From assembly GCA_902768125.1 (NCBI GenBank), contig CACXKA010000018.1:1-41222 (forward strand): 41,222 nucleotides of DNA. Reading direction: 5' to 3'. The stretch is from an uncultured Bacteroidales bacterium (lineage in GTDB: Bacteria; Bacteroidota; Bacteroidia; Bacteroidales; Bacteroidaceae). This document shows, one piece after another, positions 4,622 through 40,149 of the stretch; the stretch's first letter is position 1; each line of letters begins with the position of its first letter. Made by a program: the position numbers and the translations under genes. A model generated the notes under the pieces. The model did no database searches. It saw only the letters and a program-made list of their open reading frames with translations, and had not been told where the DNA came from.

Positions 4622-5881
4622 GTGGTTCTATTCGAAGAAGTAAACGGAAAGCTGGTTCCTAAAGGTAGCGAGGAAGACATCAAGGCATACCTTGACTACA
4701 AGAAGGGACAGACAAAGAAGAGCCGACATCGCTCCCTGCGTTCGAGAGCGAGAGGTGGTTCCTCTGCCTTCAAGTGGTTGGCTGACCACTCCCCTCTTTC
4801 GCGACTTGACCGATACATCATCGGCAAGTTCTTGGGCACTTACTTCTTTTCCATCATCCTGATCATCAGTATCGCTGTCGTGTTCGATTTCAACGAGAAT
4901 ATTGACAAGTTCTTGCAACATGACGCACCAATGGAGGAAATCATGTTCGACTACTACCTGAACTTCATTCCCTTCTACTCCAACCTGTTCAGTCAGCTGT
5001 TCGTCTTCATCGCCGTTATTTTCTTCACCACCAAACTGGCAGACAACTCTGAAATCATCGCCATGCTTTCAACGGGCACCAGTTTCGCAAGAATCGTGCG
5101 ACCTTACATGATATCAGCTGCCATCATCGCCTTGCTCAACTTCGGATTGGGTTCGTATGTGATTCCAAAGGGCAATGTGAAACGTGTGAGATTTGAGAAT
5201 AAGTACAAGAACAGAGGACGACAGGACTTCAGTGCCAACGTGCAGTTGGAAGTGGATAGTGGTGTGATTGCCTACTTCGGACGTTATGAGGAAAGCATGA
5301 AGATGGGTTTTGAGTTCACGCTCGACAAGTTCGAGGACAAGAAACTGGTCAAGCACTTGCAAGCCATGACCATCCAATACGACACCCTCTCCTACGAGCC
5401 TTACCATTGGATCATCACGGGTTATCAGACACGTGATCTGCAAGGTATGCGAGAAATCATCCAGTCGGGCAGCAAACTCGACACCATCATTCCTATCCAA
5501 CCCCAAGACCTGATGGCTTCACGAGACATGGAGATGACGCTCACGACCCCAGAACTGAGCACCTACATTGACCGCCAGAAGGAACGAGGCTTTGCCAATA
5601 TCCAACAATTTGAAGTGGAATACTGGAAACGTGGTGCGACCTCTTTCGCCACCTTCATCCTGACCATCATTGGCGTGTCCATCTCTGCCCGAAAACGCAA
5701 GAACGGAATGGGTATTGCATTGGGTATCGGTTTGGCGTTGACCCTCACCTATATCATGTTCCAGACGGTGACATCAAGTATGGCCATCAATGCCAACTTC
5801 CCTGCTGCCATCGCTGTGTGGATTCCCAACTTCGTGTTTGCGCTCATCGCCTTGTATTATTACAAGAAAGCACCGAGATAG
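4622..5881 (+). CDS. LptF/LptG-family lipopolysaccharide export permease (YjgP/YjgQ)
   Basis: The 419-residue inner-membrane protein has the LptF/G layout: two helices near the N-terminus (YIIGKFLGTYFFSIILIISI and a second near 105-130), a third near 150-175, a periplasmic beta-jellyroll domain (about 180-330), then three C-terminal helices ending in a short basic tail. LptF/G form the channel of the LptB2FG ABC transporter that extracts LPS from the inner membrane and hands it to LptC. An LptC-like gene lies 4.4 kb downstream. No ATG precedes the first helix; GTG 4622 is the only usable start after the tgt stop. It gives an uncommon ~60-residue charged cytosolic extension (EEVNGKLVPKGSEEDIKAYL, then a Lys/Arg-rich stretch). 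The 38-nt gap to tgt suggests the same operon. Whether it is LptF or LptG cannot be decided here. Confidence 0.88.
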   Translation: MVLFEEVNGKLVPKGSEEDIKAYLDYKKGQTKKSRHRSLRSRARGGSSAFKWLADHSPLSRLDRYIIGKFLGTYFFSIILIISIAVVFDFNENIDKFLQHDAPMEEIMFDYYLNFIPFYSNLFSQLFVFIAVIFFTTKLADNSEIIAMLSTGTSFARIVRPYMISAAIIALLNFGLGSYVIPKGNVKRVRFENKYKNRGRQDFSANVQLEVDSGVIAYFGRYEESMKMGFEFTLDKFEDKKLVKHLQAMTIQYDTLSYEPYHWIITGYQTRDLQGMREIIQSGSKLDTIIPIQPQDLMASRDMEMTLTTPELSTYIDRQKERGFANIQQFEVEYWKRGATSFATFILTIIGVSISARKRKNGMGIALGIGLALTLTYIMFQTVTSSMAINANFPAAIAVWIPNFVFALIALYYYKKAPR

Positions 5882-5916
5882 TTGAGAGTTTAGAGTTTAG
5901 AGTTGAGAGTTTAGAG
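5881..5916. repeat. Direct repeat GTTGAGAGTTTAGAG, 21-nt spacing
   Basis: Two identical 15-bp copies, 5881-5895 and 5902-5916, start at the last base of the permease stop codon and fill most of the gap before the helicase gene. Low-complexity A/G/T repeats of this kind occur at several gene junctions in this window. Confidence 0.75.
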
Positions 5917-20477: not shown

Positions 20478-20508
20478 AGGAGAAAAAGGTTAATAATCTT
20501 TTTCTTCT
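20478..20508 (+). terminator. Hairpin directly after nqrF
   Basis: AGGAGAAAAAG (20478-20488) pairs with CTTTTTCTTCT (20498-20508, one G-U) around a 9-nt loop, beginning 4 nt after the nqrF stop. It has no clean T-run, so it may end transcription weakly or protect the 3' end. Confidence 0.5.
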
Positions 20509-20612
20509 CGGCAGGGGATGGTAGTAGCTTTCTGGGAGGCAAGGACACGAAGCCGAAGCAGAAAGCGAACGAACATCGGTGGGAGACTATCAGTGGAAAA
20601 ACATATACACGC

Positions 20613-20652
20613 AAAAAGGAAGGACGCATCCAAACGCCCTTCCTTTTTTTTT
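20613..20652. terminator. Bidirectional terminator between nqrF and the HU-related gene
   Basis: AAAAGGAAGG (20614-20623) pairs with CCTTCCTTTT (20638-20647), with an inner CG/CG pair. It is followed by a long T-run on the plus strand and, read the other way, by five T from the A-run at 20613-20617. It suits both converging genes. Confidence 0.8.
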
Positions 20653-20687
20653 CATGTTCATAAAGGTTGCGCCCAAAGGCGCGAACC

Positions 20688-21194
20688 TCAGTCGCCCGTA
20701 TCAAAGCCACCAGAGCCTCCGTTGTTGCCACCTCCACTATCACCACCGCTTGGGGTGTCACCTCCGCTTGGAGTTCCTCCTCCATTCTCTTCTTCCTCAT
20801 CCTCTTCTCCAGCCTTAGCCCACACGAGCTTGGCTGACTTGACCGCGGCTTCCACATCATCGCCTGCACGGTAGTAGAGCGTGGGCTTGACGTCTTCAAG
20901 TTTCATGTCCTTCTCGTCCTCGTACCAGCCGCTGGAGCACGACGGATAGAGCTTGCCGATTGGACCGAGGTCGACGATGTAGCCCTGCTTCAGCATTTCC
21001 GCCACGCTGTCGAGGCACAGTTCGAAGGCCATGCGCAGCTCTGCCTTGTGCATGGTCGTGTTGTGACCCGCCTCCTTCACGATTTCGTCGAAGTCGGCTG
21101 TGCCGTTGGTGATCACTCGGGCTGCAAAGCCCAACTGCTTCGTGATGGGGTGCTTGCTCCCCACCTTCTTGATTTTCAGCTTTAACTGTGGCAT
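20688..21194 (-). CDS. HU-related DNA-binding protein with acidic/Gly-rich tail
   Basis: The 168-residue protein belongs to the Bacteroidetes 'histone-like' HU-related family (TIGR01201 type): the first ~125 residues give the HU fold pattern (LKLKIKKVG, then GFAARVITNGTADFDEIVKE, and the helix LRMAFELCLDSVAEMLKQG followed by YIVDLGPIGKLYPS). These proteins bind and bend DNA. The last ~40 residues are low-complexity: an EEDEEEE run, then Gly/Ser/Pro repeats (GGGTPSGGDTPSGGDSGGG). Acidic tails on DNA-bending proteins usually weaken or tune binding. The promoter I find lies about 310 bp upstream, with a 22-nt repeat array in the transcribed leader. It converges with nqrF over a bidirectional terminator. 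Confidence 0.87.
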   Translation of the reverse strand: MPQLKLKIKKVGSKHPITKQLGFAARVITNGTADFDEIVKEAGHNTTMHKAELRMAFELCLDSVAEMLKQGYIVDLGPIGKLYPSCSSGWYEDEKDMKLEDVKPTLYYRAGDDVEAAVKSAKLVWAKAGEEDEEEENGGGTPSGGDTPSGGDSGGGNNGGSGGFDTGD

Positions 21195-21234
21195 AAATCA
21201 ATTGGTTTTAAGTAGTTAAACAATATGGTTTGGT

Positions 21235-21496
21235 GAAAGTCTCGGGACTTTTGCATGATTGAGCGTGGACTTTTGCCTGAAAGTGTGGGACTTTTGATAA
21301 AAAGTCTTAGGACTTCTTTCTCATTGAGCGTGGACTTTTGCACGAAAGTCTGGGACTTTTCTCTGAAAGTCCCTGCTCAATCACTCCATCGAGCGTGCTC
21401 AATTGTGTAATCGAGCCTGTCCAATCGTTTCATCGAGTGTGCTCAGTCATTTCGGCAAGCGCGTCCAGTTGTCAATAGGCTGCACTCAGTCGTCAA
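21235..21496. repeat. Degenerate 22-nt tandem repeat, 12 units, each a small palindrome
   Basis: Units start at 21235, 21257, 21279, 21300, 21322, 21344, 21365, 21387, 21409, 21431, 21453 and 21475 (ten of 22 nt, two of 21 nt). Each joins a left half, either GAAAGTC (A) or ATTGAGC/ATCGAGC (B), to a right half, either GGACTTTTG (a) or GCTCAATTG (b). A and a are complementary to each other, as are B and b. Units 1, 3, 4 and 6 are A-a; 2 and 5 are B-a; 7 is A-b; 8-10 are B-b; 11-12 are decayed. There are no spacers of a CRISPR kind. Confidence 0.88.
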
Positions 21497-21506
21497 CTTC
21501 CGAAGA

Positions 21507-21539
21507 CAAATGTATGCAATCCTCCTGCACTTCTTCAAA
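21507..21539 (-). promoter_or_regulatory. Promoter of the HU-related gene, upstream of the repeat array
   Basis: On the minus strand TTTG (21539-21536), a 21-nt spacer and TACATTTG (21514-21507) match the Bacteroidetes form. Transcription would start at about 21500, just before the first array unit met by the polymerase, giving a leader of about 300 nt made of the repeats. I found no other match closer to the gene. Confidence 0.6.
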
Positions 21540-21751
21540 AATCAAGTGCGAAAAAATCTGAAATTCTTCCGTCTTTAGCTTTTATTAGCTACAGCCCATC
21601 ATTTATTTGGTAAAATTAAGTGAAAAAGAAGTTCGGGACGGCAATAAGTACAAAAAAGAAGCCCGTGCTGTTTGCACAGTCTCTCTTCTGCTTTCTTCTT
21701 TATATTTAATATTATTCCTCTACAAACCATTTTCATTTTTTCCCCCATTTC
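21540..21751. other. Divergent AT-rich spacer with no recognisable gene
   Basis: These 212 bp lie between the two diverging promoters. I see a weak hairpin (GCACTT at about 21528 with AAGTGC at about 21545) overlapping its left edge, and nothing that resembles a gene or riboswitch. Confidence 0.6.
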
Positions 21752-21783
21752 TTTGTCTATTCCAATCCTTTTCCGTAATTTTG
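21752..21783 (+). promoter_or_regulatory. Promoter of the lipoprotein gene at 21971
   Basis: TTTG at 21752-21755, a 20-nt spacer and TAATTTTG at 21776-21783. The predicted leader is about 180 nt, long for this genome region. Confidence 0.7.
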
Positions 21784-21883
21784 ACACCGCATTCAGTAAA
21801 GAGTGCAAGACATATTGCTCAATAGTTTCACAATCACCACCACGAGAAAGAGCAAACATATAATATTGGCGCTGCACCCACAG

Positions 21884-21951
21884 GGCGCAGATTTCCCATA
21901 TTTACATGTGGCTTGTGGTGAGCCGTGAGACGTATGGCGAAAGTCTGCGCC
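21884..21951 (+). promoter_or_regulatory. Long-range hairpin in the lipoprotein leader
   Basis: GGCGCAGA (21884-21891) pairs with TCTGCGCC (21944-21951), extended inward by three further pairs (one G-U), enclosing about 46 nt. It lies 20 nt before the start codon, inside the predicted 180-nt leader. It does not match a riboswitch class I know. Confidence 0.5.
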
Positions 21952-21970
21952 TCTTTCGTGTAATTATAAA

Positions 21971-22975
21971 ATGTGTATGATGAAGAATATAGGAAAAAAT
22001 GTTTTGGGAATGCTGGTGACGATGGCATTCACTTCTTGCGCCAGCATCGTGACGGGTTCAAAAGCGACCGTGTTGCTTGAAGGGGAGTTGCCTGACACAC
22101 TGACCATCCAAACCAATGTGACAACTTATGCTGACGTAGTGCTTCCTCAACAGGTGGAAGTGAAGCGAAAACGTTTGAAAGAGCCCATTCAGGTGTTGAA
22201 GGACAGTATGGAGGTGGCACAAGTTTATCCAGGAAGAAAGACCAATGATTACTTTTGGGGAAATCTGGCATTCGTAGATGTAGTAGGCATGGGAATAGAT
22301 TGGGCTACGGGCAGCATCTATGAGCCTGCCCATGATGTGTGTGTGCTGAACAGGACACAATCGGGCATCATGGTACAATACCCTCCGAAAGTGAAGAAGC
22401 CTGCCAATTTTTATCGTCATGAGATTGGCGGTGGAATGGCTGTGGACGCATACGAGAATAAAAGCCGATTCCACGAGATGGAAGATGTAGTTGAGCGACG
22501 GTTGGGATACAAATCCGAAAATCAAACCATGTATATGGGTGCGGCATCTGTGGGACTGCGCTATTATTATCACATGGATGAGCATTGGGCGGTCGGATTG
22601 CAGTTGGGGCGTGTGGGATACTATACTCATTACGCCAAGAATAGTGCTGACGGGAAAGAACAAGATGCTAACCTTCTGCTGCATTCACCCTACCTGATGG
22701 CAACGACCAAATATTATTGGAAACCAACGGGCGTTGTGTCGCTCTACTCAAAGGGCGGCATCGGAGTACAGCGTCGCCACCTCTATTTCCGTGCATACAA
22801 GAATCAGGCTGACAACCGCTTCTTCGATGAGAAGAAATGGCTTCCAGCCTTTCAGTTCTCTCCTATAGCTATCGAGGTGGGACGCCGCAACTTCCGTTTC
22901 TTTACCGAGCTGGGGTATGGAACGGAGGGCTTCCTCAGCTTTGGTATCACCTATCATTTCAAGAGAGTCCGCTGA
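21971..22975 (+). CDS. Lipoprotein with C-terminal outer-membrane barrel-like domain
   Basis: A 334-residue product whose signal ends in a lipobox (MAFTSC followed by ASIVTGS). The 'CASIVTG' start is common to small lipoproteins with a PEGA-like beta domain, and the next ~90 residues fit such a domain (ATVLLEGELPDTLTIQTNVT). The part from about residue 140 has alternating amphipathic strands (EIGGGMAVDAYENKS, ASVGLRYYYHMDEHWAVGLQ, FRFFTELGYGTEGFLSFGIT) and ends in YHFKRVR, as in small OmpA/OmpW-size barrels. It therefore looks like a surface or outer-membrane protein; its function is unknown. Three in-frame ATGs (21971, 21977, 21980) could start it. It has its own promoter and a structured leader. 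Confidence 0.75.
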   Translation: MCMMKNIGKNVLGMLVTMAFTSCASIVTGSKATVLLEGELPDTLTIQTNVTTYADVVLPQQVEVKRKRLKEPIQVLKDSMEVAQVYPGRKTNDYFWGNLAFVDVVGMGIDWATGSIYEPAHDVCVLNRTQSGIMVQYPPKVKKPANFYRHEIGGGMAVDAYENKSRFHEMEDVVERRLGYKSENQTMYMGAASVGLRYYYHMDEHWAVGLQLGRVGYYTHYAKNSADGKEQDANLLLHSPYLMATTKYYWKPTGVVSLYSKGGIGVQRRHLYFRAYKNQADNRFFDEKKWLPAFQFSPIAIEVGRRNFRFFTELGYGTEGFLSFGITYHFKRVR

Positions 22976-26650: not shown

Positions 26651-26692
26651 CAATTTTTCACATTTCACTCTTCACTTTTCACATAAAATCAC

Positions 26693-36365: not shown

Positions 36366-36421
36366 ATTGTAAATCAGAAATTAATAGTAAATCGTAAATA
36401 GTCAAATTGTAAATACACAAG

Positions 36422-39990: not shown

Positions 39991-40149
39991 TTACACTCCC
40001 TATTTCGTTTAGCGTTCAGCGGTTAGCGGTTATTGACACCCCGCATGGCTAAACCTCAAACCTCTTATCGTATCTTTAGCACGCTTGGCTTGCCAAGAAA
40101 CCTCAACCTTCAGCTCGGCGGAGCCAAACCTCCAACCTTCATCTTTCTA
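39991..40149. repeat. Spacer with short AGCGGTTA and CAAACCT-type repeats
   Basis: AGCGGTTA-like units (about 40008-40031) resemble the GGTTAAC array at 878-912. Further on, AAACCTCAAACCT, AAACCTCAACCTT and AAACCTCCAACCTT (40053-40138) are near copies, with small palindromes (CTTGGCTTGCCAAG at about 40083; GCTCGGCGGAGC at about 40114). No gene is seen. Confidence 0.6.

Follow-up and report, generated by a model that had tools for sequence, protein, structure and literature searches.

HU-family proteins are architectural proteins that bind DNA non-specifically or with weak specificity. Among systems in which repeated sites lie next to a DNA-binding protein gene, the iterons of plasmid replicons are helically phased repeats of ∼22 bp beside the gene for the protein that binds them, an arrangement that permits autoregulation, and the direct repeats of ParR-parC and the dispersed sites of ParB-parS likewise include sequences that adjoin and regulate the gene of their binder, although the proteins concerned have folds unrelated to that of HU. 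REP/BIME sequences, with their associated RAYT proteins, are dispersed intergenic palindromes in which one family is tied to one gene. Within the Bacteroidota, the canonical HU protein PG0121 of Porphyromonas gingivalis is a member of the HU superfamily that has been discussed together with a long inverted repeat, although its binding is called non-discriminatory and the available portion of the paper mentions no phased array before its own gene (PMC3969353). The nearest published element to the arrays described here, judging from the accessible part of its description, is BrickBuilt of P. gingivalis, comprising 23-nt tandem repeats in 19 dispersed intergenic copies (PMC4596501), one of which, BrickBuilt_14, is located between PGN_0871 (minus strand) and PGN_0872 (plus strand), a PF00216 DNA-binding protein (PMC4596501, Table 1). 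The likeness is one of repeat length and dispersal, and BrickBuilt differs in having leader and tail segments with small inverted-repeat ends; no link to HU-type proteins is drawn in the portion of that paper used here (PMC4596501). The term HU-HIG appears in one paper (PMC11035120), and none of the openly licensed papers returned by literature searches describes, in its title or the start of its abstract, a link between HU-HIG genes and repeat arrays.

Here, an array of dyad repeats upstream of an HU-HIG gene was examined within a 41,222-nucleotide stretch of DNA from an uncultured Bacteroidales bacterium, referred to throughout as the window. The encoded protein matches PF18291 (E = 1.9e-14; 54.2 bits against a cut-off of 26.2; residues 8-122) and misses the cut-off of TIGR01201 HU_rel (40.1 bits against 68.6), while a PDB sequence search with it returned one irrelevant match (E = 0.73). 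Protein searches identified close homologues in other Bacteroidales metagenome-assembled genomes, mostly from ruminant gut according to the record titles. The neighbourhood comprises the HU-HIG gene, an oxidoreductase with Fer2 and FAD/NAD-binding domains and an ORF at 21971-22975 with no Pfam match. The glycine-rich acidic tail of the protein recurs elsewhere in its own genome, at C6, C13, C15, C20 and C33, the recurrences at C6, C13 and C20 being in or beside other HU-HIG genes. The features of the locus are as follows.

20688..21194, minus strand: HU-HIG gene (PF18291), ATG at 21194; 168 aa, HU-type domain followed by an acidic, Gly-rich C-terminal tail
21236..21490, minus strand: whole array, 12 dyad units at 21-22-bp spacing
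21536..21539, minus strand: TTTG, candidate -33 element
21507..21514, minus strand: -7 box TACATTTG, starting 24 nt before unit 1
21475..21490, minus strand: unit 1, degenerate, closest to the promoter
21454..21469, minus strand: unit 2, degenerate
21432..21447, minus strand: unit 3, B-B
21410..21425, minus strand: unit 4, B-B
21388..21403, minus strand: unit 5, B-B
21366..21381, minus strand: unit 6, hybrid B-A
21344..21359, minus strand: unit 7, A-A, one half off by 1 nt
21323..21338, minus strand: unit 8, hybrid A-B
21301..21316, minus strand: unit 9, A-A
21280..21295, minus strand: unit 10, A-A, one half off by 1 nt
21258..21273, minus strand: unit 11, hybrid A-B
21236..21251, minus strand: unit 12, A-A, core ending 41 nt upstream of the ATG

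The array consists of 12 units of 16 bp, each reading ANNGNNC-NN-GNNCNNT and set off from the next by a 5-6-nt linker, with successive unit starts, in gene orientation, separated by 21, 22, 22, 22, 22, 22, 21, 22, 21, 22 and 22 nt. A reading made previously from the sequence alone had proposed 12 units built from two interchangeable half-motifs (A and B) with a period of about two helical turns, and both the composition and the 21-22-bp spacing are borne out: the array has a chain score of 20.7, compared with a maximum of 4.5 and a mean of 1.8 among 1000 dinucleotide shuffles of 300 nt, and the best chain elsewhere in the window (21151-21560 excluded) scores 3.6. The unit pattern was derived from this same array, which makes its six anchor positions partly circular at this locus, and the independent test of the pattern is provided by the homologous loci considered below. 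Typing by nearest half-motif gives four B-B, four A-A, two B-A and two A-B units, the clear hybrids being units 6, 8 and 11 and the fourth being one of the two degenerate units on the promoter side. Contrary to the earlier description, then, some of the units are not clean palindromes; similarly, the unit cores occupy 21236-21490, and extending the array to 21539, as had been done, takes in the promoter. The diverged units and linkers of only 5-6 nt set the array apart from CRISPR. In common with iterons it is a series of phased direct repeats of ∼22 bp, but Pfam profiles place no replication initiator gene among the adjoining genes, the linked gene instead being HU-HIG; the dyads are composed of mixed half-sites, arrays of the same kind occur away from any such gene, and the contig, on our own reading, carries housekeeping genes. 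Elsewhere in the window, short runs of 7-nt repeats located mostly between ORFs (874-913, 5880-5916, 26656-26684, 36383-36415 and 40009-40032) recall the heptamer repeats that PMC4679880 reports for some Bacteroidetes.

The elements at 21539-21507 constitute what is presumably a Bacteroidota-type promoter with -33 and -7 elements. The arrangement TTTG-N21-TACATTTG is present on the minus strand exactly as first described, with the array between the -7 box and the ATG, and an mRNA leader of ∼300 nt is plausible for the HU-HIG gene from this layout.

Next, the regions upstream of related HU-HIG genes were examined. A significant periodic array (p<=0.005, the floor of 200 shuffles) is present in 21 of 22 close-clade loci, the window included, the remaining locus (L004) having p=0.05; L100, with only 15 nt of upstream sequence, was omitted from this set. 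Linkage of the array to the HU-related gene in relatives, between promoter and ATG, was among the earlier predictions and is upheld, and the contrary outcome, that the array be absent from close relatives or unlinked to the gene, is contradicted by the same 21 loci. The letters of the array vary by lineage, being ATCGACC-ac-GGTCAGT in L003 and its kin, ATCGAGC-ac-GCTCAAT in L094, ATCGGGC-ac-GTCCAAT in L095, AAAGTCC-ac-GGACTTT in L097 and ACTGAGT-gc-ACCCGAT in L068 and L086, and the number of units ranges from 4 to 12. Among 133 unit spacings, 115 are of 22 nt, 13 of 21, three of 23 and two of 20, a count in which chaining permitted spacings of 20-24 and mildly favoured 22, and in which a few leading units of L101, L103 and L104 are spurious; an unconstrained periodicity test also has lag 22 as the commonest among lags 17-27.

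The promoter phase of the arrays was assessed with a -7-like box defined as T[ATC]N[ATC]TTTG within 130 nt upstream of the array, the nearest being taken. Such a box is present in 18 of the 22 loci (absent in L092, L101, L102 and L104), and in 15 of these 18 the first unit begins 24 nt after the box, modulo 22, even though the first unit in those 15 loci lies anywhere from 153 to 296 nt upstream of the ATG. Of the exceptions, L005 is off by 1 nt, L004 by 2 nt, and L103 is out of phase. With a stricter box, TANNTTTG, found in seven loci, three are exactly in phase and two more are within 2 nt. These counts come from related loci and are non-independent, although the arrays differ in sequence and length.

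In a wider comparison, a score of at least 22 at lag 21-23 was obtained for 45 of 131 PF18291-type upstream regions and for 1 of 119 control upstream regions (Fisher 9.6e-14). In an initial control set of 131 regions, 18 reached p<=0.005, several of these sharing a divergent HU-HIG array, and 12 overlapping controls were dropped to leave the 119. The upstream regions were sampled from ∼115 of about 505 PF18291 matches in 45 genomes, mostly the best-scoring; L055, which lacks a start, and L100 were omitted, removal of five identical copies reduced 137 rows to 132 (16 from the protein-homologue search and the rest from whole genomes), and 131 were evaluated. No array was detected at p<=0.005 in 66 of the 131. 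Genomes contain 3 to 23 PF18291 matches, ordinary HU included, the six-frame search also picking up ordinary HU genes in 9 of 14 control genomes, and among the 131 upstream regions L074 at least belongs to a protein resembling ordinary HU. Array motifs differ between HU-HIG paralogues within one genome, and protein and motif correlate weakly among the close-clade loci (Mantel r=0.29, p=0.028). Linkage alone does not name the binder, because gene and array are inherited together. As a separate observation, Gln at residue 28 is common to the L092 and L097 proteins and occurs in none of the 20 other rows; these are the two loci with AAAGTCC-type arrays throughout, and they are not sisters in the tree.

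The position of the array between promoter and ATG is compatible with the first of two possibilities raised at the outset, an RNA leader in which transcribed, stacked hairpins control translation or termination of the HU-HIG mRNA, perhaps while bound by the HU-HIG protein itself. The sense RNA is indeed more stable than shuffled sequences (mean z -3.93 over 22 arrays), but the antisense strand is no less stable (mean z -5.11), with sense outperforming antisense in 8 of 22 arrays by z and in 5 of 22 by MFE. If mRNA hairpins were selected, imperfect pairs would be expected to be G·U; instead, A·C mismatches outnumber G·U both within units (129 vs 81) and across linkers (105 vs 68), with A·C in excess in 15 loci, G·U in four and a tie in three, which argues against selection at the RNA level. 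For the mismatch and folding tests the leading spurious units were trimmed in L101, L103 and L104, L104 being cut to five units. Moreover, a unit that joins an A half to a B half is unable to pair internally as a hairpin, and such hybrids account for 4 of the 12 window units, three of them clear and the other degenerate, and for 9 of the 32 units in the seven arrays of genome G028. Additionally, some arrays without an HU-HIG gene lie between convergent genes, a setting that offers no leader, and no Rfam family scores above its gathering threshold within 20500-22000. The proposal that stacked mRNA hairpins are under selection is accordingly not supported; the type of mismatch and the comparison of sense and antisense folding lead us to reject an RNA leader as the main explanation, and such a leader is improbable. 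The compensatory changes anticipated for an RNA are seen in part, in that the two arms co-vary between lineages, but without the preference for G·U that an RNA would bring; arms changing together are also expected of a dyad DNA site and do not point to RNA specifically. Between the two possibilities, the results speak for sites in DNA, and the second one, an array of protein-binding sites in DNA, appears from these sequence comparisons to be the best fit.

A further alternative is that the array is a neutral minisatellite, its 22-nt repeats generated by replication slippage and functionless. Near-identical units in some arrays (L098, L104) are what slippage would leave, but the units of the window and of G028 are strongly diverged and have nevertheless kept their spacing and half-sites, and the promoter phase is kept as well, making this explanation very improbable. 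Across the 22 arrays, mean identity between units is 0.82 and 0.78 for the two half-sites and 0.49 for the linkers.

The letters that vary within the half-sites were examined also. In G028 the half-site anchors are A1, G4 and C7, and positions 2, 5 and 6 played no part in unit finding; where a letter departs from the commonest base at these positions, it is that base's complement in 29 of 29, 9 of 10 and 17 of 20 cases, respectively, compared with a weaker 9 of 13, 9 of 14 and 9 of 13 in the window, the shared ancestry of the half-site copies limiting the weight of all these counts. A protein that reads the minor groove, such as one with the HU fold, hardly distinguishes A:T from T:A or G:C from C:G. 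The degeneracy of the half-sites may thus point to minor-groove reading, as a lead and no proof, and position 3, where C, T or A is found, is at odds with it.

Arrays with the same motif but no HU-HIG gene were identified in some genomes. In the genome of the window a second array (L077, C3:260956-261128; 83% identity over 173 nt) lies between convergent ORFs which, judging the translations by eye, encode a serA-like dehydrogenase and a secreted protein, and its counterpart in G006 (L187) is between the same two ORFs. Genome G028, home of a more distant homologue (L005), has six additional arrays with the L005 motif, of which L176, L181 and L190 are flanked by convergent ORFs and L178, L180 and L191 by tandem ones, and no HU-HIG-like ORF is present within 1-1.5 kb on either side of these six; ORFs in G028 were called mechanically, and genes flanking the gene-less arrays were named from their translations by eye. 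The four longer gene-less arrays of G028 each carry one B-A hybrid unit. The longer G028 arrays (L175, L176, L178, L180, L181) have this unit in a polar form with the centre 'ta'. With 150 candidates scored of 1164-1412 per genome, model R1 matched G028 26 times, at seven places, and gave a single weak match in G016 and another at the window array, with none among the 150 scored in G006 or in G020. Searches for extra gene-less arrays of L003 in G016 and of L015 in G008 found none. Three other candidates were rejected: L168 as a window-class array, being a 23-bp triple, and L169 and L170 as arrays of any kind, being chance similarities inside other genes by eye.

A second class of array, comprising three 17-bp palindromes at 23 bp, is located upstream of MSIPYRK-like genes, with lag 23 at p<=0.005 in 15 of 23 such upstream regions; those triples that were read by eye precede the promoter and do not follow it. 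Motif also goes with HU-HIG group: among MSIAYRK-type genes, CGTACCCCTCGGGTACG or close variants of it are present in five of nine upstream regions, from five genomes, and in the three dispersed G020 copies examined; of the remaining four, three (L052, L056 and L152) lack the CGTACCCCTCGGGTACG motif and a different palindrome is present in L157. Some array families in these other clades have 18-40 dispersed copies. In G034, 40 places were scored (of 50 candidates), each ∼63-70 nt long and containing three 17-bp palindromes at 23 bp; every place agrees with 52-63 positions of the 63-nt query, and 33 of the 40 fall outside predicted ORFs. One element of this G034 family (L121/L287 and L248-L286) is immediately upstream of an HU-HIG gene. 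The L138 motif occurs at 22 places in G001 and 14 in G067, one of them just upstream of a similar HU-HIG gene (L060), and the L129 motif at 18 places in G020. The L138 and L221-L228 loci of G001 and G067 are TTCYAAGCGCTTRGAA triple arrays, which in each of the two genomes also precede a similar HU-HIG gene. G020 has two dispersed families (L117 and L129), and the HU-HIG paralogue that follows a member of one family is not the paralogue that follows a member of the other. The motif query from one genome also matches other, related genomes in places.

Dispersal on this scale (40, 22, 14 and 18 places in G034, G001, G067 and G020), together with the published parallel of BrickBuilt in the part of PMC4596501 drawn on above, is what would be expected if the arrays were REP/BIME- or MITE-like palindromes copied by a transposase or by recombination, one of which came by chance to lie before an HU-HIG gene. 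Dispersed extragenic copies, as in REP/BIME families, are also found for the window class, with one in the genome of the window and six in G028. In contrast, the association with HU-HIG is far above that of controls (45 of 131 against 1 of 119), window-class arrays vary in unit number and in letters, unlike copies of one element, and half-sites and promoter phase are kept where linkers are not. Nor is the linked gene here a transposase, and the rows phased at 21-23 bp and the leader copy in promoter phase also differ from REP/BIME sequences. Chance dispersal is therefore unlikely to explain the arrays as a whole, while a reading of this kind may still hold for the 23-bp triple elements.

If the arrays are protein-binding sites, the binder could be a protein other than HU-HIG, such as a small helix-turn-helix (HTH) protein or a global regulator, with the HU-HIG gene merely its target. 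An HTH-like ORF of 77-100 aa with a GRPxK/R tail, which has only weak Pfam matches to HTH domains, immediately precedes the array in at least 9 of the 22 loci (7 with a stricter pattern expression and 9 with a looser one); L003, with a run of N, and L091, with no tail, look alike by eye, and the genome of the window encodes an HTH protein beside L068 and L073. The tailed ORF is upstream of L068, L002, L086, L088, L089, L090, L093, L094 and L095, and also of L073. The count of 9 of 22 weighs toward a small HTH protein, the foremost competing candidate for the binder, and slightly lowers the standing of HU-HIG in that role. However, 11 of the 13 remaining loci, the window among them, have no HTH ORF in the upstream sequence covered (up to 1300 nt, and 426 nt in L103), and motifs differ between the HU-HIG paralogues of one genome, so that a different binder is, on present evidence, rather unlikely.

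The reading that we consider probable, from comparison of these sequences, is that HU-HIG binds the phased arrays, represses its own gene and, in some genomes, marks other chromosomal sites. The array would serve as a DNA operator whose successive dyad sites are occupied by dimers of HU-HIG, the product of the gene that follows, with the ∼22 bp spacing allowing neighbouring dimers to stack on one face of the helix; the fixed promoter phase and a filament bound over the first transcribed bases would then block or throttle transcription of the gene. The protein would read half-sites separately and largely via the minor groove, in which case A/T and G/C swaps and mixed A/B units would be tolerated, and the same protein would also occupy the gene-less arrays of matching motif in some genomes. 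HU-HIG may consequently be a sequence-addressed nucleoid protein and more than an autoregulator. The array with its linkage, spacing and promoter phase, the pattern of mismatches and the existence of gene-less copies are computed results; HU-HIG as the binder, repression, reading through the minor groove and an architectural role are inferred. Much more tentatively, the HU-HIG paralogues could together form a sequence-addressed code for chromosome organisation, in which each reads its own array family (∼1-40 per genome) via the minor groove, imposes a defined architecture on these loci and gauges its own amount through the array at its own gene.

If this reading is correct, a branch of the HU family with its own long, phased and fast-changing arrays would represent a new sequence-specific HU system, and many HU-HIG paralogues would gain testable targets. 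The arrays and their linked genes would provide natural protein-site pairs for working out how the HU fold reads sequence, and BrickBuilt and other orphan repeat families may find their explanation in such a system.
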